From Rhodospirillaceae bacterium (GTDB taxonomy: Bacteria > Pseudomonadota > Alphaproteobacteria > UBA6615): 64,000 nucleotides of DNA. Numbering within the stretch: position 1 is the first letter of the stretch; each line of letters starts with the position of its first letter. The DNA is taken from the NCBI GenBank assembly GCA_018667335.1, contig JABIVD010000053.1, forward strand, positions 1-64,000, written 5' to 3'. Shown in pieces: positions 18,808 through 35,195 of this stretch. Made by a program: the position numbers and the translations under genes. Under the pieces are notes generated by a model, which saw only the letters and a program-made list of their open reading frames with translations, was not told where the DNA came from and searched no databases.

Positions 18808-18881
18808 GGCCCGGTGGCAGAGTGGCTATGCAGAGGACTGCAAATCCTTGTACGTCGGTTCGATTCCGGCCCGGGCCTCCA
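18808..18881 (+). tRNA. tRNA-Cys (GCA)
   Basis: 74-nt cloverleaf with the 3' CCA encoded. The acceptor stem pairs GGCCCGG (18808–18814) with CCGGGCC (18871–18877), the anticodon loop reads CTGCAAA (anticodon GCA), and the T arm contains GGTTCGATTCC. Confidence 0.97.
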
Positions 18882-19198
18882 ATTCCTTGCTGTTCGCAGC
18901 TAACGCACTGATCCCAATGCGGTTTGTGTCAGCGGTTTCGCCAGCGTCTTTGCGCTTCGCCAATCCGTTCTTCTTTTGCACCAATTTCGCAAAGCTCTGG
19001 CTTGCCAACCTGGGTCGATTGACCGACCCGGTATAAATCGTCGCATGCTGTTCCGACGACGGACCGGATCGAACCGAAACGCGCAGAATTGCTGTTTCTT
19101 TGTAGCTGGCGGAAGTTTTCTAACCGGGCGGTTTTTGTCGCTGTGAGGCCGCAAACGCCCGGGCGCTTGATGTCCGTTGTCCGATCGCTTCTATTGAT
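18882..19198. other. Long gap without a gene
   Basis: About 320 bases between tRNA-Cys and the catabolic operon. I see no convincing reading frame, RNA gene or repeat. The last 25 bases may hold a weak promoter (TTGTCC at 19177, 17-bp spacing to TCTATC at 19200) overlapping the palindrome annotated next. Confidence 0.4.
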
Positions 19199-19213
19199 CT
19201 CTATCGAATAGAG
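19199..19213. promoter_or_regulatory. Candidate operator palindrome
   Basis: CTCTAT-CGA-ATAGAG is a perfect 6-bp inverted repeat 20 bases upstream of the start of the first catabolic gene. Its position over the -10 / leader region is what a repressor site would need, but no regulator gene lies beside it. Confidence 0.35.
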
Positions 19214-19233
19214 GATACTGCGGAGGACCCGGC

Positions 19234-20187
19234 ATGGACGGCAAGGTGACCATCGAGGAGCATTTTGCGCTGCCCGAGACCCTCGGTCCCGGCTCTTCGG
19301 AACTGCATCGGCGTCTGCAGGATTTTCACGGCGAGCGCATCGAGCTGATGGACCGTTGCGGGGTCGCCTTTGCGATCCTGTCCCTCAACGGGCCTGCCGT
19401 ACAAGCCGAGACCCAGACTGCCGAGGCGATAGATATGGCGCGGCGGGCGAACGATCTGCTGGCCGAGGAGATCGGGAAAAGTCCGGGTCGGCTGGGAGGT
19501 TTTGCGGCCTTGCCCATGCAGGACCCGGAGGCCGCGATCTGCGAACTGGAGCGCGCAGTTGGTGAATTGGGTCTGCTGGGCGCCAACGTAAACGGGTTCA
19601 GTGAAACGGTTGGGCCGACGACCCACCTGTACTACGACCGGCCCGAATATCGTCCGTTTTGGGCTGCGATCGAGAAATTGGAGGTGCCCTTTTATCTGCA
19701 CCCGCGAAACCCGTTTTTCGATGACATGCCCTTCTTCGATGAGCACCCATGGCTGACCTACGCTTCCTGGGCATACGCATTGGAGACCGCCATGCACGCG
19801 TTACGCCTGATGTGTGGCGGCCTGTTCGACGACCATCCACGCCTGCAGATGGTGCTGGGGCATCTCGGCGAACGCATCCCGTTCGACCTGTGGCGTGCCG
19901 ATAATGTTTTACAGAAAAACCCCAGAGGCATGCCGGCCAAGAAAACCTTGCGGACTTACATGCAAACCAATGTCCATGTTTCCACGAGCGGCCAGTTTCA
20001 TGATCCGCCCCTTCATCTGGCCATCCGGGAGATGGGTGTGGAAAGGGTGATGTTCTCGATCGACTACCCCTACGAATCAATGGAGCAAGGAAGCACCTGG
20101 TTCGACCAAGCGGAACTCTCCGATGCCGATCGGTTGGCAATCGGCCGGACCAATGCTGTTTCGCTGTTCGGACTGGAGCCGAGCTAG
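19234..20187 (+). CDS. Amidohydrolase-2 family protein (decarboxylase-like)
   Basis: A 317-residue protein of the metal-dependent amidohydrolase branch that includes ACMSD and γ-resorcylate / 2,3-dihydroxybenzoate decarboxylases. Family features are the N-terminal IEEHFALPE metal motif (Glu9-His10), GRLGGFAALPMQDPEAA, a metal His near residue 156 in FYLHPRNP, and Asp near residue 277 in FSIDYPYE. The RBS GCGGAGGA precedes the ATG. It heads a run of plus-strand catabolic genes. A non-oxidative decarboxylation of a hydroxylated ring acid is the best guess, but hydrolysis is possible. Confidence 0.8.
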   Translation: MDGKVTIEEHFALPETLGPGSSELHRRLQDFHGERIELMDRCGVAFAILSLNGPAVQAETQTAEAIDMARRANDLLAEEIGKSPGRLGGFAALPMQDPEAAICELERAVGELGLLGANVNGFSETVGPTTHLYYDRPEYRPFWAAIEKLEVPFYLHPRNPFFDDMPFFDEHPWLTYASWAYALETAMHALRLMCGGLFDDHPRLQMVLGHLGERIPFDLWRADNVLQKNPRGMPAKKTLRTYMQTNVHVSTSGQFHDPPLHLAIREMGVERVMFSIDYPYESMEQGSTWFDQAELSDADRLAIGRTNAVSLFGLEPS

Positions 20188-20196
20188 TGCGGTTTA

Positions 20197-20226
20197 GATT
20201 ATGTGATCATCGGTGCCAAATCAGCC
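20197..20226 (+). pseudogene. Possible remnant of a GMC oxidoreductase N-terminus
   Basis: Ten consecutive codons read DYVIIGAKSA, nearly matching the FAD-binding start DYVIIGAGSA of the intact GMC gene at 21699. No usable frame continues. It may be a decayed duplicate, or chance in this short gap. Confidence 0.3.
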
Positions 20227-20362
20227 CTCTGTAAATCCTCCAGTTTTGGCTTTGCGTTGTCGCCGACCGCGGGCACCATGCGTATGTCCGGCGCGATGGT
20301 GGGGATCTGTCCAAGGATTCTGATCCCCCTCGCCTGAAAACTGAACGAGAGGTCCTGGTCAC

Positions 20363-21667
20363 GTGACACAATCCATGGGTTACCGCGAAGGCATGTGGGC
20401 CGTCAGTCCGTATAATTTCGATTCCGCCATTCGCGACAGCATGAACTTGCCCGACAAGATCCAGTTGATGGACATGACCCTGCGGGAAGGCCGCCAGGTC
20501 GACGGGGTTTCAATTGGTCTGGATGAGGTGGTTGAGTTCGCGCGCCGTATTGACGCCGTGGGCATTCCGATCATCGAGATGCACCACGATGATCCCGAGG
20601 AAATTCGACAGGTCAAAAAACTGGGTCTGGACCTCAAGGTTCAGGCGCTCGTACACCCCACTGCGGCCCTGAATCCGGAGCTTTGCCGGCAGGAAATCGA
20701 TCTGTGTCTGGATGTCGGCTCCGACATCATTTGTCTGGCGTTTGCGGTCTCCGACTATAATTTCCGGCTCGTTGAATCGATGGGTGGCCTGAAGATCAGC
20801 CGCGAAGAAGCCGTCGACAAGGCCTGCGAAGCCGTCGCCTATGGCAAATCAAAAGGCGCCACGATCAACGTCAACACCATGGACTTCACGCGCCTCGACC
20901 TGGATTGGCTGCTGGAAATCATTGGGCGCCTTGTGGAGGCTGGCGCGGACATCGTTCGGATCGATGACATTTGCGCCCCCTGTATTCCGGCGGTCTACGA
21001 ACATCACGCAAAAGCCGTGAAGGCGAAGATCGGTGACGTGCCACTCGCCATTCACAGCCACGATGATTTCGATCTGGCCACGGCCGCCCAATTGTCCGCG
21101 CTCCAGGGTGGTGCAGAAATTCTGGAAGGCTGTATCAACGGACTGGGTGAGCGCGCGGGCGTGCCGAACATCGCCGTACTCGCGGCGATCTGCGAGATAT
21201 TCTACGGCTACGACACAGGAATCCGCCTCGACGGATTTCAGGAACTGTCGGAATTCGTGGCGCAGGTCTGGAATCAACCTATTCCCGAGCACTTGCCTGG
21301 AAACGGCCGCACCGCATTCTCCCACGCTGCTGAAGTGCATTACGTTCTGCCAAGCGATGATCAATGGTCTTTCAACGCCTGGGCACCTTCGGTGCTTGGG
21401 AACACGGACAAGGTCGCGCTGTGCCACTACTCGGGCCCAATGGCGATCAAACGTCGGGCCAGTGACATGTCGCTCGGGGAACTCGACACCGCGACCGCCA
21501 ACCTCGTGCTGGAGCAGGTCCGCAAGGAGTTGAAGCTCCGCAACGGCCCGCTGACGGATCAGCTGTTCACCGAACTGGTCGAAGTCGCGGCGCGGGCATC
21601 GGCGTCGGGGGAGACGGATACCGAGCGCCTGGAGGCCTGGAACCGACTTCTCCAGTCCGATAGCTAG
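20363..21667 (+). CDS. HMGL-like / DRE-TIM metallolyase family protein
   Basis: A 434-residue TIM-barrel protein of the HMG-CoA lyase / isopropylmalate synthase superfamily. The active-site motif is MDMTLREGRQ near residues 35–44 (a variant of D-x-T-L-R-D-G-x-Q) and the metal-binding His pair is in AIHSHDDFDLAT. A conserved GLGERAGVPNIAVLAA block follows. It could cleave or form a C–C bond next to a keto acid. GTG 20363 has GAGAGG about 10 bases upstream; ATG 20375 is an alternative. It lies between the decarboxylase-like gene and a GMC oxidoreductase gene. Confidence 0.8.
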   Translation: MTQSMGYREGMWAVSPYNFDSAIRDSMNLPDKIQLMDMTLREGRQVDGVSIGLDEVVEFARRIDAVGIPIIEMHHDDPEEIRQVKKLGLDLKVQALVHPTAALNPELCRQEIDLCLDVGSDIICLAFAVSDYNFRLVESMGGLKISREEAVDKACEAVAYGKSKGATINVNTMDFTRLDLDWLLEIIGRLVEAGADIVRIDDICAPCIPAVYEHHAKAVKAKIGDVPLAIHSHDDFDLATAAQLSALQGGAEILEGCINGLGERAGVPNIAVLAAICEIFYGYDTGIRLDGFQELSEFVAQVWNQPIPEHLPGNGRTAFSHAAEVHYVLPSDDQWSFNAWAPSVLGNTDKVALCHYSGPMAIKRRASDMSLGELDTATANLVLEQVRKELKLRNGPLTDQLFTELVEVAARASASGETDTERLEAWNRLLQSDS

Positions 21668-21698
21668 TCGACCAGCGACGGGGGCCGGTCGCAGACCG

Positions 21699-23321
21699 AT
21701 GGTTCAGGATTTCGACTATGTCATCATCGGTGCAGGGTCCGCGGGATCGGTCCTCGCCAACCGACTCTCGGCATCCGGCGCCAGCATTTGTCTGCTCGAG
21801 GCGGGCGGCCCGGACCGCAATCCCTTCATTCATATGCCCGCCGGGTTCATCAAGACGCTGTCGAACCCGCGCCTGAACTGGCTCTATGAAACCCAGCCGA
21901 GCGCGGGCACGGCCGGCCGGCCGATCGTGACGCCGCGCGGCAAGGCGCTTGGCGGCTCCAGTTCGATCAACGGTCACATCTACAACCGCGGCCAGCGGAT
22001 GGACTTCGACACTTGGGCGCAGATGGGAAATCGCGGCTGGAGCTTCGCCGACGTCCTGCCCTATTTCAAACGCAGCGAGCGCCGAATCGGCGACGGAGAC
22101 GACACCTACCGCGGCCGCGACGGCGAACTCGTGGTGACGGATGTCGACCGGCGCGACCCGGTGTCGGACGCCTTCATCAACGGGGTGGCGAATCTCGGCA
22201 TCCCGCGCGGCCTCGACTACAACGGCGCCGTGCAGGAGGGCGTGGGCTACTTTCAGCGCACGATCCACAAGGGCCGCCGGGTGAGCGCCGCGCGCGCCTT
22301 TCTGAAACCCGCCCGACGCCGCGCGAACCTGAAGGTTTTAACCCACACGCATGTGACCAGGATCCTGTTCGAGGGCCGCCGTGCGACGGCCGTCCGGTAC
22401 CGCCAGGGCGACCAGGATCATGAGGTTCGTGCGAACCGGGAAATTCTCCTCGCGGCCGGTGCGATCGCCTCACCGCAGATCCTCCAGGTCTCCGGCGTGG
22501 GGCCTTCCGGCCTTCTGCAGGATATCGGCGTCACCCCGGTGCATGCGCTGGGCGGCGTCGGCGAGAACCTGTCCGATCACTTTGGCATCCGGCTCGCCGC
22601 GCAGCTCCAAGGAGTAAAAACGATCAACGAACGTACACGCGGCCTCCCGCTCGCCATCGAGGCAATCAAATACGGCCTCGCGCGCAAGGGAGTCCTGGCC
22701 CAGTCCCCCGGCATCGCCGTCGCGCTATGTAAATCACGCCCCGCATTGGAACAGCCCGACCTGCAGGTCATTTTCGCACCGGCGAGCTACAAGGAAACAG
22801 CGGTCTACGAGCTGGATGATTTTCCCGGCATGACCGCCGGGGTCTGGCCGATGCGGCCGGAAAGCCGCGGACATGTGCGAGCACGCAGTGCCGACACCCA
22901 CGACAAGCCAATCATTCAGCCGAACTATCTCGAGGCCGAGGCGGACCAACGGCTCCTGCTCGACGGCATCCGGCTGGCCCGACGGATGCTTCGCTCCCCG
23001 GAGCTGGCGCACTGGTACGTGCACGAGACGTCTCCCGGCGATGCGGCCCAGAGCGACGACGAACTGCTCGACTTCGCCCGGCGGCGCGGCACGACGATCT
23101 TCCACCTGATGGGGACGTGCAAAATGGGGCCAGCTTCCGACGCGGGCGCGGTCGTCTCCGACGAACTCAGGGTGCATGGCATCGACGGGCTGCGCGTCAT
23201 CGACGCATCGGTCATCCCGACGTCGCATTCGGCCAATACCAATGCCGCGACGATCATGATCGCGGAAAAGGCGGCCGACATGATTCTCGGGAAACCACCC
23301 CTCCCCGCGGCCCCTGTTTAG
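21699..23321 (+). CDS. GMC-family FAD oxidoreductase
   Basis: A 540-residue flavoprotein of the glucose-methanol-choline family, which oxidises primary or secondary alcohols. The FAD dinucleotide motif VIIGAGSAGSVLANRL is at residues 7–22 and GMC signature 1 is GKALGGSSSINGHIYNRG. The C-terminal catalytic region contains FHLMGTCKMG and SHSANTNAATIMIAEKAA with the His/Asn active-site pair. It resembles choline dehydrogenase-like enzymes rather than choline dehydrogenase itself. It follows the HMGL-like gene by 31 bases and is likely co-transcribed. Confidence 0.88.
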   Translation: MVQDFDYVIIGAGSAGSVLANRLSASGASICLLEAGGPDRNPFIHMPAGFIKTLSNPRLNWLYETQPSAGTAGRPIVTPRGKALGGSSSINGHIYNRGQRMDFDTWAQMGNRGWSFADVLPYFKRSERRIGDGDDTYRGRDGELVVTDVDRRDPVSDAFINGVANLGIPRGLDYNGAVQEGVGYFQRTIHKGRRVSAARAFLKPARRRANLKVLTHTHVTRILFEGRRATAVRYRQGDQDHEVRANREILLAAGAIASPQILQVSGVGPSGLLQDIGVTPVHALGGVGENLSDHFGIRLAAQLQGVKTINERTRGLPLAIEAIKYGLARKGVLAQSPGIAVALCKSRPALEQPDLQVIFAPASYKETAVYELDDFPGMTAGVWPMRPESRGHVRARSADTHDKPIIQPNYLEAEADQRLLLDGIRLARRMLRSPELAHWYVHETSPGDAAQSDDELLDFARRRGTTIFHLMGTCKMGPASDAGAVVSDELRVHGIDGLRVIDASVIPTSHSANTNAATIMIAEKAADMILGKPPLPAAPV

Positions 23322-23416
23322 GCACGCGACTTTATGCACACGCCTCAGATGTGTGCATAATCTCGCAATAGGAATGATTGCCCGCGATTGGGCGGTCTCG
23401 TCAGGGGGAACCAAGC

Positions 23417-24109
23417 ATGCATATCATCGATCTGAGCCGTGAAATTCATCACCGCGCACCGGCCCATCCGTCTCATCCGCCCGTGATTATCACGGTGTGG
23501 AACGACCATTCAGAGGTCAAGCGCGCCGGCAACACCGAATTCACATCGAAATCCCTGTCGATCACCATGAGCGACCATTCCTGCACTCATGTCGACGCAC
23601 CGGTACATTTCAATCCCGCACCGGGTGCGCCGTCGATCGACGAAGTCCCGCTGGAGAATTTCTACACCGAGGCTATCTGCCTCGACTTTGGAGATGTGCC
23701 AAACAACTACGAGGCGACGGTCGAGGATATGGAGGCCGCCCTCGCGGCATCGGGCGAAGAGATCAAGCCCGGCGACACGGTGATGATCCATATGGGCATC
23801 CACAACCGGCTCTTTGGTACGCCAGAGTATGTCCATGACTTTCCCGGCCTGTCTGTCGAGGCCGTGCATTGGCTGGCGGACAAGAAGATCACCATGTTCG
23901 GTGTCGAGACGGTCAGCCCGGCACCCGAGGGCGAACCGAACTATCTGGCCCATCTGGCCTGTGCCGAACGCGGCATCACCCACATGGAATGCCTGATGAA
24001 CCTGGACCAGCTGATCGGCAAGGGCCGGTTCCGTTTTGCCGGCTTCCCGCTGAAGATCAAGGGCGGTACCGCCAGCCCGATCCGCGCCGTGGCTATTTTC
24101 GAGGACTGA
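23417..24109 (+). CDS. Cyclase-family metal hydrolase (kynurenine formamidase-like)
   Basis: A 230-residue protein of the cyclase family, which includes kynurenine formamidase and isatin hydrolase. The metal motif H-x3-H-x-D-x3-H is visible as HSCTHVDAPVHF (His58, Asp60, His64). It begins with the standard MHIIDLSREIHHRAPAHP. I choose ATG 23417 because GGGGGAA is 7 bases upstream; a 13-residue extension is unlikely. Amide or lactam ring opening would be a typical reaction. It is tightly followed (3 bases) by the VOC gene. Confidence 0.82.
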   Translation: MHIIDLSREIHHRAPAHPSHPPVIITVWNDHSEVKRAGNTEFTSKSLSITMSDHSCTHVDAPVHFNPAPGAPSIDEVPLENFYTEAICLDFGDVPNNYEATVEDMEAALAASGEEIKPGDTVMIHMGIHNRLFGTPEYVHDFPGLSVEAVHWLADKKITMFGVETVSPAPEGEPNYLAHLACAERGITHMECLMNLDQLIGKGRFRFAGFPLKIKGGTASPIRAVAIFED

Positions 24110-24112
24110 GAA

Positions 24113-24982
24113 TTGGCGAAAAAACCGACCTACGATCGCGGGGCCGAGGACGTCGGCAACATCGTCAGCCTCGAGCATGTCAATCTGTTGGTACCGGACC
24201 AGGGCCTCGCGACGCTCTTCTACATCAGCGGTCTCGGCCTGACCCGCGATCCCTACCTGATGACCGGCACCGACATCATGTGGGTCAACGCCGGACGCAA
24301 CCAGTTCCACCTGCCCACCCGCGGCACCCAGGTGCTGCGTGGGCACACGGCACTGGTGATCAACGACTTCGAGCAGCTGCCGGGCCGTCTTGAGAATGTT
24401 CGCAAGGAGCTGAAAGGCACCAAGTTCGCCTTCAAACGCGAGCGTGGCCGCATCGATGCCACCTGCCCCTGGGGCAACCAGTATCGCTGCTACCCCGCCG
24501 GCAAACGGTTCGGGAAGATGAGCCACGGCATACCGTATGTTTGCTTCGATGTGCCCGAGGGCGCGGCCGACCCCATCAAGCGGTTCTACGCCGAGATTTT
24601 CGACGCACCCGCACGTACCGGCACGTTCGATGGCGCACCCGCCGCATTTGTGTGCGTCGGCCCGGATCAGGAATTGATCTTCCGTGAAAAAGCAGGGCGG
24701 CAGGCCACGTTCGACGGCCATCATATCCAGGTCTATCTCGGCGATTTTTCCGGGCCCCACCGGCGCCTGCTCGAACGCGGCCTGATCACAGAGGAAAGCG
24801 ATCAGCATCAGTATCGTTTCGAGATGATCGTCGATCCGGACAACGGCAAACCCGTGTTCCAGATCGAGCACGAGGTGCGCAGCCTGCACCATCCGCTCTA
24901 TGCCCGCCCCCTGGTCAATCGCAATCCCGGACAGCGAAACATGACCTACCTGGCCGGTGCGGATACGCTTCGCGTCGGCTGA
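24113..24982 (+). CDS. VOC (glyoxalase/dioxygenase) superfamily protein
   Basis: A 289-residue protein with two vicinal-oxygen-chelate modules: the first starts at SLEHVNLLVPDQGLATLFY and the second at IPYVCFDVPEGAADPIKRFY. Possible metal ligands are His23 in the first module and His/Glu in HHIQVYLGDF and the terminal FQIEHEV. Two modules fit an extradiol-dioxygenase or isomerase type, but metal-binding residues are not clear enough to assign. TTG is the probable start, 3 bases after the cyclase stop, with GAGGA at 24101–24105 as the ribosome site. Confidence 0.7.
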   Translation: MAKKPTYDRGAEDVGNIVSLEHVNLLVPDQGLATLFYISGLGLTRDPYLMTGTDIMWVNAGRNQFHLPTRGTQVLRGHTALVINDFEQLPGRLENVRKELKGTKFAFKRERGRIDATCPWGNQYRCYPAGKRFGKMSHGIPYVCFDVPEGAADPIKRFYAEIFDAPARTGTFDGAPAAFVCVGPDQELIFREKAGRQATFDGHHIQVYLGDFSGPHRRLLERGLITEESDQHQYRFEMIVDPDNGKPVFQIEHEVRSLHHPLYARPLVNRNPGQRNMTYLAGADTLRVG

Positions 24983-25017
24983 ATAATTTACAGTGAACGT
25001 CTTGAAAGGATTCCATC

Positions 25018-25803
25018 ATGGTTGAGATACGCAATCCCGCCCGCGAACGTCTCGAAGCGGGAGAAATCTCGGTCGGTATCGGCATCCGTCTCGCGCGCAG
25101 CGCCGACATCGCCAGCATGATGAAAACCGCCGGTATGGACTGGCTGTTCATCGATCTGGAACACGGACCCCTCACCCTCGACCAGACGGCGCAAATCTCC
25201 TGTGCCGCCCTGAGCGCCGGAATCTCGACACTGGTCCGCGTTCCACGCGGCGAGATGGCGATGGCAACCCGCGCGTTGGATGGCGGCGCACTCGGCATCA
25301 TCATGCCCCAGTGCGAAAGCGCTGATGAAGCGCGTGAGATTGTCGACCGGTTGCACTACGCCCCCGAAGGCTCACGCGGTGTCGTCGGCGGCCTGCCCCA
25401 GTTCGGTTTCGCCAACCCCGACATGACGTCGGCGATGAAGGCGATGAACGACACCATGCTGGTGATTATCATGCTGGAGACGCCCAATGCGATCGCGCAG
25501 GCTGATGAGATTGCCGCGGTCGAAGGGGTGGATGTCGTCCTCATCGGGACCAATGATCTATCCGCAGCCTCCGGCATCCCGGGCCAGGTGGGCCACGAAA
25601 AAATTGAGGCGAACTACAAAACTGTCGCCGCGGCATGCGAGAAACACGGCAAATGGATGGGCATGGGCGGCGTTCCGGCACCGGATCTCCAGGAGAAGTA
25701 CATCTCTATGGGTGTGCGTTTCGTGCTGTCCGGTCAAGACATGAGCGTCCTGATCAACGCCGCTGCAAACACTGTCGAGAGAGTCCGCAGTTACAAGGTC
25801 TGA
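25018..25803 (+). CDS. HpcH/HpaI aldolase family protein
   Basis: A 261-residue TIM-barrel class II aldolase of the 4-hydroxy-2-oxo-heptanedioate / 2-dehydro-3-deoxyglucarate aldolase family, which releases pyruvate or a related oxo acid. Signatures are DWLFIDLEHGPLT, TLVRVPRGE, IIMPQCESADEA and VVLIGTNDLSAASGIPG. The metal-binding Glu/Asp lie in the expected MLETPNA…D pattern. It is the last plus-strand gene of the catabolic run and converges with the allophanate hydrolase gene. Retro-aldol cleavage of the product made by the upstream enzymes is the natural inference. Confidence 0.85.
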   Translation: MVEIRNPARERLEAGEISVGIGIRLARSADIASMMKTAGMDWLFIDLEHGPLTLDQTAQISCAALSAGISTLVRVPRGEMAMATRALDGGALGIIMPQCESADEAREIVDRLHYAPEGSRGVVGGLPQFGFANPDMTSAMKAMNDTMLVIIMLETPNAIAQADEIAAVEGVDVVLIGTNDLSAASGIPGQVGHEKIEANYKTVAAACEKHGKWMGMGGVPAPDLQEKYISMGVRFVLSGQDMSVLINAAANTVERVRSYKV

Positions 25804-25816
25804 CACCCGGCGCAGC

Positions 25817-27607
25817 TTAGGTCTTTGCAGCCAGATAGCCGCGCCAACTTCCCAGTTCGGAAATGTCCAGGGCGCCTTCGGCAGCGTAGGCCTCGCAGAT
25901 GAAGCCCTTCACGAGGGACCCGTCTTCCAGTTCGACGGTGCCGATGCCCAGCGGCGCGGGAATCCCGGCCATGAAGCTCCCGAACTGCGCCTGCGGAATA
26001 GCCCAGATCTCGACATCGATGGCGACACCGTCCGTATCCGTGCGGATCATTCCAGGCCGCGGCGGCTCGAACGCCTCCAGCGCATAGAAGCGGTAGTTCG
26101 GTGCTGACCGGGTTGTGCGTACCAGAGTGGCCCTGCGTTCGGTCAGTTGATGGTTCAGCGGCAATCCCGACATATGCGCCCCGCAAGCGACGAGGAGCAT
26201 CATGTCGTCGCCCAGTACCCCGGCATCCGGCGCAGCGTCAGGCACCGGCGCACGCGCGGCCCCCATGCCCGTGTCGGCCGCGCGATGCATCGCATCTGCC
26301 AACGGCAAGATCGCCCGATCACGGAAGGCGGGGGCGATGAGCGTGACGCCGAACGGCAAGCCATTGTCGAGGAACCCCGCCGGCACGGCAGTGCCGCATA
26401 AATCCAGCAAATTCATATAGTTGGTGTAGTAGCCAAGGTTCGAATTCAGCCGGATCGGATCGGCCTCGAGCTCGGCGATCGTATAGATGGTCCCCGCGGT
26501 CGGCGTCATCATGACGTCGATATCCTGCCAGACCGGCTCGACCTTCCGGCGCAGCGCCTGCATCCGGTACTCCGCCGCGAAGGCCTCCGCAGCGGTGGGC
26601 GTTGCCCCGCCGCCGACGATTTCACGCGTCACCGGGTGCACTTTGTCGGGATGCGCGTCGAAGAACTCCCGGATTCCAACGTAGCGCTCGGCCACCCACG
26701 GGCCTTCGTAGAGCAACCGAGCCGCCTCGAGGAACGGTGTCAGATCGACTTCAACGACGCGTGCGCCGAGGCTCTCGGCCCGTGCAACGGCATCGCCGAA
26801 CAGTTTCTCAGCCGCCGCATCTCCGAAGAACTCCAGGTTCTCCGCCTTCGGCACTCCCACGCGCGCGCCATCAGTCGGGATCGGCCCACCGGCCGAAATC
26901 GCCGCCTCGTCGCGTGAATAAGGATCGTCCGCATCGAATCCCGCGGCCACATCGAGCACCGTTTGTGCATCGGCCGCGCAATTGGCGAAGATCGAGATGC
27001 AATCGAGCGTCCGGCACGCCGGCACCACGCCGCGCGCACTCAGCAGCCCACGTGATGGCTTGAGACCAACAATATTGTTGAACGCCGCAGGCACCCGGCC
27101 GGAACCGGCGGTATCGGTGCCAAGCGAAAAGCTCACAAGCCCCCGTGCCACGGATACGGCCGATCCCGCGCTTGATCCGCCGGAAACATAGGCCGGATCG
27201 AATGCGTTGCTGCACGCGCCATAGGGCGATCGTGTGCCGACCAGACCGGCCGCGAACTGATCCAGGTTTGTCTTTCCGATCAGGATCGCGCCCGCCGCAA
27301 TCAGGCGGTCGACGACCGGGGAGGATATCTCGGGCGTGTAGGCAAATTCCGGGCAACCGGCTGTCGTCGGCATGCCGGCCACATCGATATTGTCCTTTAC
27401 GGCGAACGGAATCCCGAACAGCGGCAGCTCTTTGGGGTCGAATGTTGCAAGACGCTTCGCATCAGCCAGCACAGCTTCGTCGGACACCCGGGCAATCCAG
27501 ATGTTGCCGTCATCGTTTTCCCGAAGGCGCGCGAGCGTTTCGCGGGCGACTTTATCCACGTCTCCCGGGGATTGAAGGTATCGATCACGAAGAGTGTCAA
27601 AGTTCAT
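25817..27607 (-). CDS. atzF: Allophanate hydrolase
   Basis: This 596-residue enzyme splits allophanate (urea-1-carboxylate) to ammonia and CO2. The amidase-signature domain (residues 1–440) has catalytic Lys71 (FAVKDN), a cis-Ser at 145/146 (SGGSSAGSA) and nucleophile Ser169 (GTDTAGSGR). The C-terminal domain (about 465–596; LVACGAHMSGLPLNHQL, GIGTVELEDGSLVKGFICE) is the one specific to allophanate hydrolases, so I prefer this to a generic amidase. ATG 27607 is the start; the longer upstream frame is not supported. It is divergent from the biuret-hydrolase-like gene, which makes its likely substrate. Confidence 0.9.
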   Translation of the reverse strand: MNFDTLRDRYLQSPGDVDKVARETLARLRENDDGNIWIARVSDEAVLADAKRLATFDPKELPLFGIPFAVKDNIDVAGMPTTAGCPEFAYTPEISSPVVDRLIAAGAILIGKTNLDQFAAGLVGTRSPYGACSNAFDPAYVSGGSSAGSAVSVARGLVSFSLGTDTAGSGRVPAAFNNIVGLKPSRGLLSARGVVPACRTLDCISIFANCAADAQTVLDVAAGFDADDPYSRDEAAISAGGPIPTDGARVGVPKAENLEFFGDAAAEKLFGDAVARAESLGARVVEVDLTPFLEAARLLYEGPWVAERYVGIREFFDAHPDKVHPVTREIVGGGATPTAAEAFAAEYRMQALRRKVEPVWQDIDVMMTPTAGTIYTIAELEADPIRLNSNLGYYTNYMNLLDLCGTAVPAGFLDNGLPFGVTLIAPAFRDRAILPLADAMHRAADTGMGAARAPVPDAAPDAGVLGDDMMLLVACGAHMSGLPLNHQLTERRATLVRTTRSAPNYRFYALEAFEPPRPGMIRTDTDGVAIDVEIWAIPQAQFGSFMAGIPAPLGIGTVELEDGSLVKGFICEAYAAEGALDISELGSWRGYLAAKT

Positions 27608-27807
27608 ATTTATCAACCAGATAAAGACTGTTTCTAATTTCACACCCGAGCATGACCATGTCGACCGAGGCACCCTGCCTATAAATTGGTCACAGCCCGG
27701 CCTTTCCAACGCGGAACGGTGCGGTGTAGCGTTTTCGTATAGACGGACGTCACGCGCGGAATTCCTGCATCCGTTATAGAGAAATCGCGCCGCCGTGGGG
27801 GAGCAAA

Positions 27808-28482
27808 TTGGAGAGCAAGAGCCACAATTTCGATGCTGAGCCCTACGCACTGGCATTCGACCCGGCTGCGACGGCCTTGCTGATCATCGATATGCAGCGC
27901 GACTTCCTGGAACCCGGCGGCTTCGGAGAGATGCTGGGAAATGACGTGTCGTTGCTTCGCACCACCATCGAGCCCTGCACGCGCATCCTGAAGGCCGCAC
28001 GCGACGCGGGCCTTACAGTTATTCATACGCGCGAAGGCCATCGTCCCGACCTGACGGATGCACCGCCTTCGAAACTGGCGCGGGGCGGTCTCGATGTCGG
28101 GATCGGCGATCCCGGTCCCATGGGACGCATTCTTGTCCGTGGCGAACCAGGTCATGACATCATCCCGGAACTCGCACCGGCCGACGACGAGCCTGTCATC
28201 GACAAGCCCGGCAAAGGTGCATTCTACGAAACCGACCTGGATCTGATCCTCAAGAACCGCGGAATATCGACGCTGATCGTCTGCGGGGTGACGACAGAGG
28301 TCTGCGTCCACACGACCGTTCGCCAGGCAAATGACCGCGGCTATGAATGCGTGGTGCTCGCCGATTGCGTGGGATCATATTTCCCGGAATTCCAGCGGGT
28401 CGGGCTTGAAATGATTAAGGCCCAGGGCGGAATTTTCGGATGGGTGAGTGATTCCGCGCGTGCCGTTCAGGCACTGGGCTAG
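27808..28482 (+). CDS. biuH: Isochorismatase-family amidohydrolase, probable biuret hydrolase
   Basis: A 224-residue cysteine hydrolase. The catalytic triad is Asp28 (LIIDMQRDF), Lys133 (IDKPGKG) and Cys166 (GVTTEVCVHTT). From memory of characterised Rhizobium biuret hydrolase, the triad spacing matches and two substrate-binding residues, Lys136 and Gln206 (KAQGG), are also in place, as is the long block THTREGHRPDL-type HTREGHRPDL. Biuret hydrolysis gives allophanate, which the divergent neighbour would consume. TTG 27808 with GGGGGAG just upstream is the start. Ureidoacrylate or another ureide remains a possible substrate. Confidence 0.75.
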   Translation: MESKSHNFDAEPYALAFDPAATALLIIDMQRDFLEPGGFGEMLGNDVSLLRTTIEPCTRILKAARDAGLTVIHTREGHRPDLTDAPPSKLARGGLDVGIGDPGPMGRILVRGEPGHDIIPELAPADDEPVIDKPGKGAFYETDLDLILKNRGISTLIVCGVTTEVCVHTTVRQANDRGYECVVLADCVGSYFPEFQRVGLEMIKAQGGIFGWVSDSARAVQALG

Positions 28483-28551
28483 CGGGAAAAACAAGGATTA
28501 CGGAGACAAGGGCGTTTCGAAACAGACACATTCAATAGGGGGAATAAGCGA

Positions 28552-30108
28552 ATGAGTACAACGAAAGTTTCATGGTGGGTTCCAGGCGACTGGAACGCGC
28601 TCTTTGGCCTCGGAACAAACGTCCTGGTCAATCTTCTGGTCCTCACGGTCCTACTGAAATTCGTCATCCAGTTACCTGACGAAGTCATCTTCGGCCGTAT
28701 TCTTCCCGCCGTCGGACTGATGATCTTTCTCGGCAACATGTTCTACGCCTATCTGGCGCAGAAACTCGCCAAGAAGACCGGCCGCAACGATGTTGCCGCC
28801 CTGCCCTCGGGCCCGAGTGTGCCGCACATGTTTTTCGTCGTGCTGGCGATCATGTTGCCCATCAAAATCCAGACCGGTGATCCGTTGCTGGCCTGGCAGG
28901 CAGGCCTTGCATGGGTATTCATCGAAGGCATCGTGCTGTTCGCCGGCGCATTCGTCGCACCGCATGTCCGACGGCTGACACCACGCGCGGCCCTGCTGGG
29001 CACGCTGGCCGGAATTTCGATCACTTTCATCTCGATGCGACCGGCGATGGAAATTTTCGAGAGCCCGGTGATAGGTCTGGTTTCACTGGCCATCATCCTC
29101 GCCAGCTGGTTCGGCGGCGTCCGCTATCCCGGCAAAATTCCCGCTGGTCTGATCGCCATCGGCGTCGGCACGTTGCTGGCCTGGCTCAGCACCTGGTTCG
29201 ATCTGGGGATTGGCCTGATGAGCGTCGACAGCGTGACCCAGTCGATCGGTGCCATCGGATTTGCATTGCCGGCCATCTCGTTCGGTCAGGTGTTTGACGG
29301 CCTCAATCAGTATTGGGCCTTCATCCTGGTGACCGCGATCCCGTTCGGCGTCTATGACTTCATCGAAGCCATGGACAATGTCGAGAGCGCGGCCGTCGCG
29401 GGGGACGAATACAGCGAGAAGCAGGTCATCGGTGCCGAAGGCATCATCAGCCTGATCGGAACGTTGTTCGGCAGCCCGTTTGCCAACGCCGTCTACATCG
29501 GACATCCCGGTTGGAAGGAGATGGGTGGCCGCATCGGTTACTCTGCCGTCACTGGCATCTTCGTTCTCGTGGTGACATGGCTTGGAATTGTCGGGCTATT
29601 GCTCGCGGTGATCCCACAAGTCGCGATCATCCCGATCCTGCTCTATATCGGCATGCTCATCGGTGCGCAGGCGTTCCAGTCGACGCCTTCCAAACACGCG
29701 CCGGCGATCATCTTTGCGCTCATTCCAAACCTCGCGGCTTGGGGCAAGGTCCTGATCGATGGCGCACTCGGGGCGGCCGGCACGAATGCCGGGGCGGTTG
29801 GATTGGACAAGTTGGCCAATCAGGGCGTTCTGTATCGAGGGCTCGAAGTCCTCGGCAGCGGTGCGATCCTCGTCGGGCTCATCTTCGGTGCCATGGCTGT
29901 CTTCATCATCGACCGCAACTATAAGCCTGCGGCTGCATTCGCACTGACGGCTGCCGTGTTGAGCTATTTCGGGTTCATCCACGGCCCCGCCGTGGGAATT
30001 GGTTCCGGGCTTGGCATATCGCCAACGATCACGATCGCATATCTGGCCGTTGCCGCGATCCTGTTCTGGTGCAACGGTCTCGAGAAGGCCGAGGCACCCG
30101 CCGACTAG
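28552..30108 (+). CDS. NCS2-like (xanthine/uracil-type) permease
   Basis: A 518-residue polytopic membrane protein with about 12–14 transmembrane helices. The pattern DVAALPSGPSVPHMFFV in the N-terminal half and YDFIEAMDNVESAAVAGDEY before a Gly-rich segment resembles purine/xanthine permease-type transporters. It lies 69 bases after the biuret-hydrolase-like gene, with GGGGGAATAAG before the ATG, and ends in a strong terminator. Import of a ureide or a purine/pyrimidine breakdown product is inferred from context; the substrate cannot be read directly. Confidence 0.75.
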   Translation: MSTTKVSWWVPGDWNALFGLGTNVLVNLLVLTVLLKFVIQLPDEVIFGRILPAVGLMIFLGNMFYAYLAQKLAKKTGRNDVAALPSGPSVPHMFFVVLAIMLPIKIQTGDPLLAWQAGLAWVFIEGIVLFAGAFVAPHVRRLTPRAALLGTLAGISITFISMRPAMEIFESPVIGLVSLAIILASWFGGVRYPGKIPAGLIAIGVGTLLAWLSTWFDLGIGLMSVDSVTQSIGAIGFALPAISFGQVFDGLNQYWAFILVTAIPFGVYDFIEAMDNVESAAVAGDEYSEKQVIGAEGIISLIGTLFGSPFANAVYIGHPGWKEMGGRIGYSAVTGIFVLVVTWLGIVGLLLAVIPQVAIIPILLYIGMLIGAQAFQSTPSKHAPAIIFALIPNLAAWGKVLIDGALGAAGTNAGAVGLDKLANQGVLYRGLEVLGSGAILVGLIFGAMAVFIIDRNYKPAAAFALTAAVLSYFGFIHGPAVGIGSGLGISPTITIAYLAVAAILFWCNGLEKAEAPAD

Positions 30109-30125
30109 TAGGCAAACAAGTATCC

Positions 30126-30162
30126 GGCGGGCTGCCATTCGGTGGCCCGCCGTTTTGTTTTT
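30126..30162 (+). terminator. Rho-independent terminator after the permease
   Basis: GGCGGGCTGCC-ATTC-GGTGGCCCGCC makes an 11-bp stem (two G·U pairs) with a 4-base loop, followed by GTTTTGTTTTT. It lies 18 bases after the permease stop and 37 bases before the next gene, so it may also attenuate read-through into the allH–fdrA operon. Confidence 0.85.
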
Positions 30163-30198
30163 CGGGCCCGTGTCGGGCATCGCAACGAGGAACTCCAC

Positions 30199-31155
30199 GT
30201 GCGTTTGACGGTGACCGACATACCCGAGCGTTTTCCCACCCACGTCGCGAACGGGCGCGCGATGAGCGTGCATTCACGTGTCATGAACATCGCACTGAAT
30301 ACGAACGCCGGGGCCGTTGTGACCATCGACGCGCGACGCGGCGCGCCGTTGTCGCCCGGCACAGCACGACTGAATGCGCCCGATGGGATGGATTTCTCCC
30401 GGCTTGTCCGGCCCGGCGCAGGCCTGGCGATGCGGGCAGGCATATTGCGCGTACAGGGCGCTGATCTGACATTCGATTTCCGCAACGCCGTATCCACAAA
30501 ATGGTCCGACGGGCCGAGATGGCCAAGGATGGACCGGTCCACACTTGAAGCCGGTTGGATCGAGACATGGTTGCTGTTTGTCGATGCGGCCGAGACCTCG
30601 GGGTTTACCGCGGCATTGCTGGACGGTGCATTGTCTGGTGGTTTCGATCGCGCGCTTGCGCATCGGGTTCGGACTGCACTCCCTCGCCTCATGCGCGCCG
30701 CCGCCGACACCAATTTTCCAGACAGCTGGAGCAGCCTGCGCAGCCTGCTCGGAATCGGGCCGGGCCTCACCCCGTCAGGCGATGATTTCGCGACCGGTTT
30801 CTTCCTGGGCCTCGGGTTCAGCGCGCGGTCTCCTCGCCAACAGACATTCCTTCGCGACCTGACCCGGGCCACGCTCGCGCAGGCACACGACAGCACCGAT
30901 GTTTCGCGCGCGTGTTTCGAACATGCCGCGGCGGGCCGCTTCTCGACCCCCCTGACAACGCTCGTCGAAGGCATTGCCACCCATGCCGACAATCTTCCCG
31001 CACGTCTTGCGGATGCCCTGGCGATGGGGCACAGCTCGGGACGCGACGCCGCATTCGGCACCTTGTGCGGGCTCGCCGTCACCGAACCGGAACTGCGTAC
31101 GCGCGTCATCGACGCACTCGACATCACTTACCTGCATGAGAAACCGACCCGATGA
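30199..31155 (+). CDS. allH: DUF2877 protein, AllH-like carbamoyltransferase subunit
   Basis: A 318-residue cytosolic protein of DUF2877, the family of E. coli YlbF/AllH, one of three subunits reported for oxamate carbamoyltransferase in allantoin breakdown. The family signature LLGIGPGLTPSGDDFATGF is at about residues 190–210, followed by FEHAAAGRFSTPL. I choose GTG 30199, with GAGGA 8 bases upstream, over a longer GTG start at 30142 that would lie inside the preceding terminator. Its stop overlaps the fdrA start (ATGA), indicating translational coupling. Confidence 0.78.
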   Translation: MRLTVTDIPERFPTHVANGRAMSVHSRVMNIALNTNAGAVVTIDARRGAPLSPGTARLNAPDGMDFSRLVRPGAGLAMRAGILRVQGADLTFDFRNAVSTKWSDGPRWPRMDRSTLEAGWIETWLLFVDAAETSGFTAALLDGALSGGFDRALAHRVRTALPRLMRAAADTNFPDSWSSLRSLLGIGPGLTPSGDDFATGFFLGLGFSARSPRQQTFLRDLTRATLAQAHDSTDVSRACFEHAAAGRFSTPLTTLVEGIATHADNLPARLADALAMGHSSGRDAAFGTLCGLAVTEPELRTRVIDALDITYLHEKPTR

Positions 31156-32678
31156 ATATGGGAACACGCATCATTGCCGACATGTACAGGGACTCTGTGG
31201 CCCTGATGAAGATCTCGTCGGCCATCACCCTGCTCGAAGGCGTCAGCCAGGCCTCCTGCATCATGGCGACGCCGGCAAACCTCGATCTCCTGCGTGAGGC
31301 GGGGCTAATCACCGATGATCCCGGTGCACGCCCGAACGAGGTGCTGATCGCGGTGGAGGCAGAAACGGACAGCGCTCTGATTGCCGCCCTCGACGCCGCC
31401 GAGGCGACCCTGCGCGCCGATCCGGTGGTGGTGGAAAGCGGCGGCGTCGCCTCGGAACCGCTGCGCAGTATCGAGATGGCGCTCGATGCCAACGTGGCGG
31501 CGAACTTCACCCTGATTGCCACGCCCGGGCCGTTTGCCGCGGCCGAGGCATTCAAGTCGGTGCAACTCGGGCTGAATGTCATGATGTTCAGCGACAACGT
31601 CTCGATCGAAGACGAAGTCGCGCTCAAGGCCCAGGCCGATCAGGCCGGGCTGATGGTCATGGGCCCCGATTGCGGCACCGCGATCATCGACGGCGCGCCG
31701 CTCGGGTTTGCCAATGTCGTACGCCGCGGAACGATAGGAATCGTCGCCGCCTCGGGCACCGGACTGCAGCAGGTCTCCTGCCTGATCGATGCGGCCGGGT
31801 CTGGCGTTTCCCAGGCCATCGGCACGGGCGGACGCGATCTCGACAGCCGGATCGGCGGCATCACTACAAAGCGGGCGATCACGACGCTCGGCGCCGATCC
31901 CGACACCGGCGTCATCGTGCTGATATCGAAGCCACCGGCACCTAACGTCGCAGCGTCGGTACTCGAACACGCCGTCGCGACCGGCAAACCCGTCGTCGCG
32001 TGTCTTCTCGGACATGTGCCCGACGGACCGGGCCTTCCCGGGGTTTCCTACGCACGCACCCTGGAGGAGGCCGCCCACATGGCCGTCACTGCGGCCGGTG
32101 GCACCATGGCCGCCACACCGGGCGGGCTCATCGATGGCCCCCTGCCCGGCCTGGATGCCGACCGGCGCTACCTGCGGGCGCTCTATAGCGGCGGCACCTT
32201 CTGCTACGAGGCGCTCACCATGCTGGGCGAGACGCTCGATGGCGTGCACTCGAACACCTCCAGTGCGAGCACCCAGACCCTCAACGATCCCTGGACAAGC
32301 GCGGCAAATACTGTGTTGGATCTCGGTGATGATCTCTTCACCCGCGGCCGCCCCCATCCGATGATCGACCACCGATTGCGCAATGAACGGATCATCGCCG
32401 AGGGCCAGGATCCCAGCACCGGCGTGATCCTGTTCGACGTCGTCCTCGGTCATGGTTCCCACGAGGACCCCATGGCCGCCATGGCGCCGGCACTGTCCGA
32501 TATCCCTGCGCATGACGCGGGCGGCCCGGTTCTTCTCGGGTTTGTCTGCGGCACCGAGGGCGACCCGCAGGGCCTGGCCCGCCAGCGTGCTGCAATGACA
32601 GACCTGGGTGTGCTCCTGGCCGAGAACAATGCCCAGGCCGTCCGCACGGCCGCAGCGATCCTGGGGGACGCACAATGA
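31152..32678 (+). CDS. fdrA: FdrA/AllF-like carbamoyltransferase subunit
   Basis: A 508-residue protein of the FdrA family, which resembles succinyl-CoA synthetase α/β domains. N-terminal residues YRDSVALMKISSAI and ATPANLDLL match the FdrA start. The CoA-ligase-like phosphate-binding region is MGPDCGTAII and IGTGGRDLDSRIGG. E. coli FdrA is about 555 residues and, with YlbE and YlbF, makes carbamoyl phosphate from oxalurate. It overlaps both neighbouring genes by four bases (ATGA), which supports a stoichiometric complex. The symbol refers to the E. coli homologue; the substrate here may differ. Confidence 0.83.
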   Translation: MNMGTRIIADMYRDSVALMKISSAITLLEGVSQASCIMATPANLDLLREAGLITDDPGARPNEVLIAVEAETDSALIAALDAAEATLRADPVVVESGGVASEPLRSIEMALDANVAANFTLIATPGPFAAAEAFKSVQLGLNVMMFSDNVSIEDEVALKAQADQAGLMVMGPDCGTAIIDGAPLGFANVVRRGTIGIVAASGTGLQQVSCLIDAAGSGVSQAIGTGGRDLDSRIGGITTKRAITTLGADPDTGVIVLISKPPAPNVAASVLEHAVATGKPVVACLLGHVPDGPGLPGVSYARTLEEAAHMAVTAAGGTMAATPGGLIDGPLPGLDADRRYLRALYSGGTFCYEALTMLGETLDGVHSNTSSASTQTLNDPWTSAANTVLDLGDDLFTRGRPHPMIDHRLRNERIIAEGQDPSTGVILFDVVLGHGSHEDPMAAMAPALSDIPAHDAGGPVLLGFVCGTEGDPQGLARQRAAMTDLGVLLAENNAQAVRTAAAILGDAQ

Positions 32679-34078: not shown

Positions 34079-34107
34079 TATCTGAGGCTTCGGAAGGAGG
34101 CGACATC

Positions 34108-35067
34108 ATGCCGCCACGCCAGAAGACAGCCGTCGTAGCAGCCGGCGGAAATTCCCTGATCATCGACGCCGATCACAAGTCGATCCCCGATCAGTACACC
34201 GCCGCGGCCATCACCGTGGGCCATGTCGCGGATATGATCGAACAAGGCTGGGATGTGGTCATCACCCATGGCAACGGGCCGCAGGTCGGATTTATCCTGC
34301 GCCGTTCGGAGATCGCAATTGCCGAAGTCCCGCCCGTGCCCATGGACTATGCCGGGGCAGATACCCAGGGCGCGATCGGCTACATGTTTCAGCGCGCCAT
34401 GCAGAACGAGATGCGCCGACGCGGCATCGATCGCCACGCGGTTGCCGTCGTCACCCAGGTGCTGATTGACCGCGATGACCCTGCCTTCGCCGATCCATCG
34501 AAGCCCATTGGCTCACATATGACGGAGGAATTCGCGAGAACCCACGCCGCGGAACATGGCTGGCAGGTGCGCGAGGAAGGCGACCGCGGCTGGCGCCGGG
34601 TCGTGGCCTCACCGCGCCCGCAATCGATCGTCGATATAGGCGCCATCGAAACCCTGATCGATGCGAACCACATCGTGATCGCGTGCGGCGGCGGCGGCAT
34701 TCCGGTTTACCGCGACGACGAGGGTGACCTTCAGGGGCTCGAGGCGGTCATCGATAAAGATCTCGCATCAAGCCTGTTGGCCCATGAACTGAACGCGGAG
34801 TTTCTCGTGATCACCACGGAGGTCGAAAAGGTCGCCGTGAATTTCGGCAAGCCCGACGAAAGCTGGATCGACCGCATGACGGTTGCCGAGGCCCGCGCCC
34901 ACCAGGCGGACGGCCAGTTTCCCGCGGGCAGTATGGGGCCGAAAATCGACGCCATTATCGAATTTCTCGAAGCCGGTGGAGGTGCTGGAATCGTGACCAA
35001 CCCGCAAAATCTTGGCCGCGCGATCGCCGGAGAGACGGGCACATGGATTGTTCCCGACAAGAAATGA
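34108..35067 (+). CDS. Carbamate kinase
   Basis: A 319-residue amino-acid-kinase-fold enzyme that transfers phosphate between carbamoyl phosphate and ADP, giving ATP, CO2 and ammonia. Clear family motifs are VVAAGGNSLI, VVITHGNGPQVG, MDYAGADTQGAIGYM, IACGGGGIPV, DKDLASSLLA and GSMGPKIDAII. It follows allG by 29 bases with AAGGAGG before the ATG. It fits the role of E. coli AllK (YbcF), the last step after the carbamoyltransferase; the arcC-type enzyme of arginine deiminase pathways is an alternative, but no arcA or arcB lies nearby. Confidence 0.93.
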   Translation: MPPRQKTAVVAAGGNSLIIDADHKSIPDQYTAAAITVGHVADMIEQGWDVVITHGNGPQVGFILRRSEIAIAEVPPVPMDYAGADTQGAIGYMFQRAMQNEMRRRGIDRHAVAVVTQVLIDRDDPAFADPSKPIGSHMTEEFARTHAAEHGWQVREEGDRGWRRVVASPRPQSIVDIGAIETLIDANHIVIACGGGGIPVYRDDEGDLQGLEAVIDKDLASSLLAHELNAEFLVITTEVEKVAVNFGKPDESWIDRMTVAEARAHQADGQFPAGSMGPKIDAIIEFLEAGGGAGIVTNPQNLGRAIAGETGTWIVPDKK

Positions 35068-35078
35068 CGATTCACCTT

Positions 35079-35106
35079 TTGCGTATCGCGCGGGGTTTGT
35101 TATAAC
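35079..35106 (+). promoter_or_regulatory. Promoter of tRNA-Asn
   Basis: TTGCGT (35079–35084), a 16-bp spacer, then TATAAC (35101–35106). Transcription would start near 35113, seven bases before the mature tRNA. Confidence 0.6.
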
Positions 35107-35119
35107 CGCGCGCCTTTGA

Positions 35120-35195
35120 TCCGGTGTAGCTCAGTTGGTAGAGCAAGCGGCTGTTAACCGCTAGGTCGTAGGTTCGAGTCCTACCGCCGGAGCCA
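35120..35195 (+). tRNA. tRNA-Asn (GTT)
   Basis: 76-nt cloverleaf with encoded CCA. The acceptor stem TCCGGTG pairs with CGCCGGA, the D loop has AGTTGGTAGAG, the anticodon loop is CTGTTAA (anticodon GTT), and the T arm has GGTTCGAGTCC. Confidence 0.97.

Follow-up and report, generated by a model that had tools for sequence, protein, structure and literature searches.

Introduction

AllFGH has been described as the oxamic transcarbamylase of E. coli (PMC11326118) and TrtA as a triuret hydrolase (PMC7948467). In comammox, and partly also in archaeal nitrifiers, triuret/biuret genes are reported to lie together with atzF and allFGHK (PMC12625717). This study deals with a locus in which a comparable set of ureide genes follows a run of six catabolic-type genes, here called A to F. 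The locus lies in a stretch of 64,000 nucleotides (hereafter the window), part of contig JABIVD010000053.1 (C46) of a Rhodospirillaceae bacterium (assembly GCA_018667335.1), the genome of which amounts to 3.55 Mb in 62 contigs and is 96% complete.

The six genes are members of ordinary enzyme families in a lineage-specific arrangement, undescribed as far as searches of the open-access literature go: these yielded no account of the run, those on a resorcylate decarboxylase with a resorcinol cluster and on the gene combination likewise gave nothing, and none of the DRE-TIM titles listed there concerns it. The preliminary description of this DNA likewise did not recognize the order as a known pathway. 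Overall, the run is best explained as a lineage-specific patchwork that occupies a variable slot between tRNA genes and possibly serves the catabolism of hydroxy-aromatic compounds or hydroxy acids, an explanation that we consider reasonably probable. Its modular, separately inherited structure is highly probable, and the assignment to hydroxy-aromatic or hydroxy-acid substrates, suggested by gene A and by the neighbors of C orthologs, is put forward tentatively.

A six-gene run between two tRNA genes

The run stands in a slot bordered by two tRNA genes, at the following positions of the window:

18808..18881, + strand, tRNA-Cys, upstream border of the slot (ARAGORN)
19234..20187, + strand, gene A, Amidohydro_2 protein of the gamma-resorcylate (dihydroxybenzoate) decarboxylase type, optional member (Pfam 1.6e-37)
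20363..21667, + strand, gene B, DRE-TIM protein, probably Claisen-condensing (isopropylmalate synthase/homocitrate synthase-like), no regulatory domain found (Pfam HMGL-like 4.8e-38)
21699..23321, + strand, gene C, GMC oxidoreductase, choline-dehydrogenase-like (Pfam GMC N and C domains)
23414..24109, alternative TTG start at 23378, + strand, gene D, cyclase-family (PF04199) metal-dependent hydrolase (Pfam Cyclase 2.5e-35)
24113..24982, + strand, gene E, VOC-like on weak evidence, two-domain pattern
25018..25803, + strand, gene F, HpcH/HpaI class II aldolase (Pfam HpcH_HpaI 1.7e-30)
35120..35195, + strand, tRNA-Asn, downstream border of the slot (ARAGORN)

The six open reading frames (ORFs) and, with that of E on weak evidence, their family assignments, based on Pfam matches at E 0.001, the curated equivalog cut-offs of NCBIfam/TIGRFAM and PDB relatives as nearest solved structures, are real and not due to chance. 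All six lie on the plus strand between 19234 and 25803, where they had been placed before, with intergenic gaps of 175 (A-B), 31 (B-C), 92 (C-D), 3 (D-E) and 35 bases (E-F), so that the single direction and short spacing given in the preliminary description stand. Neither promoter-like sites (3 seen, 3.1 expected from shuffles) nor terminator-like sites (7 seen, 8.5 expected) are in excess, and no integrase is found among the 13 annotated genes of the slot (18808-35195).

The borders recur in relatives. The tRNA-Cys gene adjoins a PIMT gene at L024, L025, L026, L028, L030, L036, L037, and L044, and the tRNA-Asn gene closes the slot at L024, L025, L026, L028, L029, L036, and L050. The two border tRNAs are common to two genera, and the catabolic cargo between them varies.

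Layouts of the slot in related genomes

Seven genomes of the same genus were compared, including that of the window (G000), together with genomes of another genus labeled g3. The window's genome reads A-B-C-D-E-F followed by the ureide genes, and G021 reads B-C-D-E-F followed by the same. G022 carries B-C-D-E-F on a contig that then stops within the allophanate hydrolase gene, the remainder of which is found with the TrtA-type gene and the permease gene on a second short contig; AllG was not found in this assembly, which is 79% complete. In G023, an alpha/beta hydrolase gene, C-D-E-F and a 2OG-Fe oxygenase gene are followed by the ureide genes without the permease. G020 has A-B, two inserts (an MDR dehydrogenase and a LysR regulator) and C-D-E-F, directly 3′ of which, on the strand of F, stand AllH-FdrA-AllG; this slot lacks the triuret-type hydrolase, the allophanate hydrolase and the permease, and its carbamate kinase looks broken, with matches confined to residues 1-121 and 247-318. 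G018 has two further genes, A, an alpha/beta hydrolase gene and C-D-E-F, with tRNA-Asn 116 bases on. G019 has one further gene, A-B, an alpha/beta hydrolase gene (sharing 65-71% identity with its counterparts in G018 and G023) and C, inside which the contig ends; orthologs of D, E, and F were found nowhere in this assembly, possibly owing to an assembly gap.

Across the genus, C-D-E-F therefore occur in this order on one strand in six of the seven genomes, with A in four, B in five, some ureide genes in five, and all of A-F in two. The six-gene order is uninterrupted only in the window's genome and recurs with the two inserted genes in G020; the other five genomes do not have it. In g3, the slot of G008 holds two MDR reductases, LysR, E, and D before tRNA-Asn, and that of G006 a broken-looking E and D before tRNA-Asn. 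G007 shows a truncated B, MDR, LysR, E, D, and tRNA-Asn, its upstream border lying outside the stretch, and G004 shows B, two reductases, LysR, E and the contig end. In the stretches seen, orthologs of each of A-F also occur without the other five, and one ancestral A-F operon was rejected on these grounds.

These separate orthologs, and the different cargo found between the same borders in the two genera, are also what would be expected if unrelated enzymes, each working alone and forming no pathway, had been collected in an insertion hotspot between two tRNA genes. We regard this alternative as rather doubtful, since the C-D-E-F order is held in six of the seven genomes, related though they are, and the gaps within it measure just 3 to 92 bases. 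In the patchwork that we favor, C-D-E-F would form the stable part in the genus, with A and B as optional members.

The core genes C to F

Gene C falls under both choline dehydrogenase cut-offs (betA, 505 vs. 732.1; PRK02106, 580.1 vs. 605). Its orthologs stand without the other five genes in G004, G006, G008, and G015 (the G004 and G006 contigs measure 3.6-4.3 kb). A BenE benzoate-transporter gene adjoins the ortholog in G004 and G006, and lies about 1.9 kb away, past transposase-like ORFs, in G008.

Gene D belongs to PF04199 (122.2 against a gathering threshold of 23.1) and carries at residue 55 the motif HSCTHVDAPVH, of the form H-x3-H-x-D-x3-H. The exact motif is found in 14 of 19 distinct D-family sequences, the exceptions being three paralogs or relatives at 36-53% identity, one at 37%, and L065 at 67%. 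D scores 63.2 bits with the arylformamidase equivalog, the cut-off of which is 223.05. Orthologs of D at 67-72% occur in mixed settings in five genomes outside the family, in two of which amidase-like genes are close by.

Gene E has no Pfam match at 0.001, the only signal being a sub-threshold Glyoxalase match (E 0.13; 13.1 bits vs. 20.6). A profile comparison against a single VOC sequence returned 3.4% probability (E 0.013), and a low-confidence structure model (pLDDT 46) retrieved nearly exclusively VOC-type proteins among its top Foldseek matches, with query TM values of 0.17-0.35 (19 at E ≤ 0.001). On this weak evidence, E may be VOC-like. Five residues (H22, H66, E192, H204, and E254) are invariant in an alignment of 14 sequences, in which the other 13 are 32-86% identical to the E of the window; this alignment does not include the copy of G021 or those of G006 and G016, which are partial or broken. 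E192, H204, and E254 are candidate metal-site residues; a metal-site claim drawn from the structure model itself was dropped, the model being too poor.

The profile of E matches 29 of 385 genomes of the class, its own included. Orthologs stand without the other five genes in G001, G002 and others, and G103, G217, and G386 hold both D and E, on separate contigs. A scan of genome contigs with E gave three loci, of which JAQCFD010000110.1 and JABJEK010000017.1 were treated as G022:C56 and G021:C99 (same match pattern) and not counted again, and a search of plasmids with E gave no match. One relative of E (L072) adjoins a Rieske oxygenase gene, which counts in favor of aromatic or hydroxy-acid use.

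Gene F scores 131, 134, and 118 bits with the HpaI, GarL, and RhmA equivalogs, under their cut-offs of 369, 407, and 441, respectively. The motifs DLEHG, ETP, and IGTNDL are present in all seven distinct sequences, and among solved structures F is closest to YfaU, a 2-keto-3-deoxy sugar aldolase. In G015, an ortholog of F (69%) is flanked by unrelated genes.

The optional genes A and B

Gene A matches gamma-resorcylate decarboxylase (PDB 2dvt) over its full length (residues 1-315, 360 bits, E 7.3e-107). The motifs EEHF, HPRNP, GHLGE, and DYP are kept in all six distinct A sequences (matches at 1e-30); EEHF, HPRNP, GHLGE and the late Asp hold the metal ligands. By full-length homology and active-site motifs, A is assigned to the gamma-resorcylate decarboxylase type. 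Besides the four genomes of the genus (orthologs at ≥85%), an unlinked ortholog 93% identical to A occurs in G005, where the contig breaks off within A and B-F are absent from the 9 kb upstream.

Gene B was labeled a DRE-TIM lyase in the preliminary description. Among solved structures, its strongest matches are to the homocitrate synthase 6ktq (E 3.3e-43) and to isopropylmalate synthases, with much lower scores for HMG-CoA lyases. Residues R41, E42, Q45, H231, H233, and H326 are kept in the alignment to 6ktq; the corresponding residues of methylthioalkylmalate synthase are the essential Arg, a metal carboxylate, an active-site Gln, a pair of metal-binding His and the catalytic His (PMC11532901). 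Because the Arg/metal carboxylate/Gln motif, the HxH and the late catalytic His are conserved, B probably belongs to the Claisen-condensing branch and would be a synthase; the lyase reading was rejected, as the alignments, the HxH and the late His fit the condensing branch. None of the synthase models listed is matched by B above its cut-off, the best score being 233.5 bits vs. 517. Among the other labels, that of A changes to the gamma-resorcylate decarboxylase type, those of C (GMC), D (cyclase), and F (HpcH/HpaI) hold, and that of E becomes VOC-like on the weak evidence given above.

Matches to B at 1e-80 occur in 3 of 210 genomes of the class, and only two of the 210, its own included, reach ortholog level (≥93%). 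In two genomes of another genus, G016 and G017, B (L042:8248-9552 and L043:8574-9878) is 93% identical and adjoins a 2OG-Fe oxygenase gene. Across genera, this amino-acid identity goes with third codon positions that are about 54% alike, against 45% with a 42%-identical paralog; B thus appears to be under strong constraint and was possibly transferred. The GC content at third codon positions (GC3) of B is 0.59-0.60 in G016/G017, compared with 0.28-0.39 in four G016 genes, which suggests horizontal transfer of B to these genomes; in trees, however, the G016/G017 copies do not group with the genus but lie close to the g3 copy and the long branch of the paralog, the nodes concerned having support of 0.25-0.98, so that transfer is not proven.

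A paralog of B (42-43%) lies at L051 (G000:C36), where a thiamine-diphosphate enzyme, an MFS transporter and a GMC protein are encoded nearby. Oxygenases of the 2OG-Fe(II) type that share one two-domain architecture are found by F in G023, which has no B (L025:9049-10011), and by B in G016/G017 (L042:7058-8056). Plasmid searches with B and D gave only matches below 60% identity.

Proposed chemistry of the run

The preliminary description had read the set as one for opening a ring or lactam, oxidizing an alcohol and releasing a 2-oxo acid. A catabolic flavor is plausible. The gene families, the conserved catalytic motifs and the separate inheritance are shown by the data; the order of steps, the substrates and the co-regulation of the run are inferred. 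Where present, A would remove the carboxylate of a hydroxybenzoate-like acid, leaving the decarboxylated phenol. C would oxidize an alcohol, D would hydrolyze a lactone or an amide, and E, as a putative metal-dependent VOC enzyme, could carry out ring cleavage or isomerization. F would perform a retro-aldol cleavage of a hydroxy-2-oxo acid, releasing an aldehyde together with pyruvate or a different 2-oxo acid, and B may serve as a side branch joining a 2-oxo acid to an acyl-CoA. The lean toward hydroxy-aromatic or hydroxy-acid substrates comes from gene A and from the BenE neighbors of C.

Alternatively, C could form a lactone by oxidizing a sugar or polyol, D act as the lactonase, and F cleave a 2-keto-3-deoxy-sugar acid to pyruvate. 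The GarL and HpaI scores of F, its relationship to YfaU and the GMC assignment of C fit such a route, which is nevertheless unlikely: a dehydratase and a sugar transporter are absent from the run, A and E have no place in the route, and F misses all aldolase equivalog cut-offs.

The neighboring ureide module

Past F, the slot continues with the following genes:

25817..27592, - strand, allophanate hydrolase, convergent with F (TIGR02713, 817 bits vs. cut-off 511)
27808..28482, + strand, triuret/biuret hydrolase-type cysteine hydrolase (PDB 6xix, TrtA, 8.9e-83; 6xjm, biuret hydrolase, 1.5e-79)
28552..30108, + strand, membrane permease resembling NCS2 nucleobase transporters (translation judged by eye; no Pfam match)
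30142-31155, + strand, AllH, oxamate-carbamoyltransferase-type subunit (Pfam AllH)
31152-32678, + strand, FdrA/AllF, oxamate-carbamoyltransferase-type subunit (NCBIfam FdrA, 444.9 vs. 433)
32675-34078, + strand, AllG, oxamate-carbamoyltransferase-type subunit (Pfam AllG)
34108..35067, + strand, carbamate kinase (arcC TIGR00746, 365.9 bits vs. cut-off 358.25)

The gene at 27808-28482, which the preliminary description left unmentioned, is of the isochorismatase type, stands between the allophanate hydrolase and the permease, and is divergent from the former. Its nearest PDB relative is the triuret hydrolase TrtA, and it scores 283.7 against a BiuH equivalog cut-off of 370. AllH is only 41-60% identical to its counterparts in G020, G021, and G023, compared with 69-94% for FdrA and AllG, and has thus diverged much faster.

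A comparable set is found at L055, on a Serratia conjugative plasmid, where DUF2877, FdrA, DUF1116, carbamate kinase and an annotated NCS2 symporter, which takes the place of the permease, stand behind a ring-opening amidohydrolase. This arrangement hints that substrates resembling cyanurate or barbiturate may also be within the reach of AllFGH-type enzymes.

The run had been described as directly adjoining the ureide genes. The distance is indeed 13 bases, and the two genes on either side, F and the allophanate hydrolase gene, are tail to tail, which does not make one operon. From this adjacency, the preliminary description had drawn the idea of a nitrogen heterocycle that gives both a carbon chain and a ureide; in such a model F would end the carbon chain, and the ureide would be finished by AllFGH, carbamate kinase and allophanate hydrolase. 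Relatives show the two sets to be separable. AllG occurs in 8 of 24 genomes searched, namely four of the same genus and G002, G011, G016, and G017; in the stretches around AllG of the latter four, A, B, D, E, and F are unmatched at 1e-5 (the G002 and G011 contigs measure 9-10 kb), and G016 and G017 hold the whole ureide module with no A-F ortholog beside it. Conversely, G018 passes from A and C-F straight into tRNA-Asn, with AllG and the TrtA-type gene not found in this assembly (82% complete); B is missing there, so that five of the six genes are seen apart from the ureide set. The preliminary description had itself named such mutual separation as evidence against its idea, and apart from the B of G018 this is what the relatives show. 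The convergence of the two sets in the window, the broken-looking carbamate kinase of G020 and the reported occurrence of the same kind of module in comammox and archaeal nitrifiers (PMC12625717) also speak against the heterocycle.

Several observations do weigh against the separation of run and module and against the aromatic lean. Ureide genes adjoin F in all five of the genus genomes that have them, although one gene intervenes in G023 and only the allophanate hydrolase fragment precedes the contig end in G022. This adjacency and the G020 layout, in which AllH-FdrA-AllG directly follow F, could reflect a functional tie. Relatives of D lie near amidase-like genes at three loci, including L063, L064 (where an Amidohydro_1 protein is encoded nearby as well) and the site of a 38% paralog in the window's own genome, which directly adjoins such a gene; these neighbors would fit nitrogen compounds. 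In G016 as in G017, a GMC protein with 45% identity to C is encoded about 2.2 kb past the carbamate kinase, and B is present on a different contig. What speaks for aromatic substrates stems from A, an optional gene, and from orthologs of C in other settings, and not from the C-F core itself, and the count of six in seven for C-D-E-F is drawn from related genomes of a single genus. On balance, the link from heterocycle to ureide is not supported and is quite improbable, although the adjacency in the genus and the G020 arrangement leave a little room for it. Least probable is that C-F lead to an amide or carbamoyl compound that AllFGH splits with phosphate to give carbamoyl phosphate and ATP, with G020 as the stripped-down form and B as an undescribed Claisen synthase family recycling the 2-oxo acid of F, a proposal weakened at its last step because the carbamate kinase of G020 looks broken.

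In the favored patchwork, the ureide genes past F would thus be a separate, self-contained nitrogen-salvage module placed alongside the run. That the two catabolic sets adjoin here and yet come apart in relatives illustrates how adjacency can mislead.

Comparison with known systems

Gene A resembles gamma-resorcylate decarboxylase (2dvt/3s4t) in whole-length homology, motifs and the late Asp, and differs in setting: resorcinol-pathway genes are absent among A-F, and A is optional in the genus. B shares the Arg, metal carboxylate, Gln, HxH and late His of the isopropylmalate and homocitrate synthases, which belong to the Claisen-like DRE-TIM enzymes, but sits among catabolic genes and misses the curated synthase cut-offs; it is worth flagging as a very conserved Claisen-condensing DRE-TIM member. 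D shares the Pfam match and the motif with kynurenine formamidase and isatin hydrolase, its PDB relatives in PF04199, and misses the arylformamidase cut-off widely. F has the Pfam family and motifs of the class II aldolases HpaI, GarL, and RhmA but lies far under each equivalog cut-off.

In the window's module, the triuret/biuret-type hydrolase and allophanate hydrolase are co-located with AllFGH and carbamate kinase, which extends the biuret/oxalurate salvage module to one more lineage. In comammox, a hydrolase of the isochorismatase type is grouped with allophanate hydrolase, AllFGH and carbamate kinase as it is here, and the module of archaeal nitrifiers often has another amidohydrolase instead (PMC12625717). 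Unlike the nitrifier module, the module of the window is preceded by a six-gene catabolic run and includes an NCS2-like permease.

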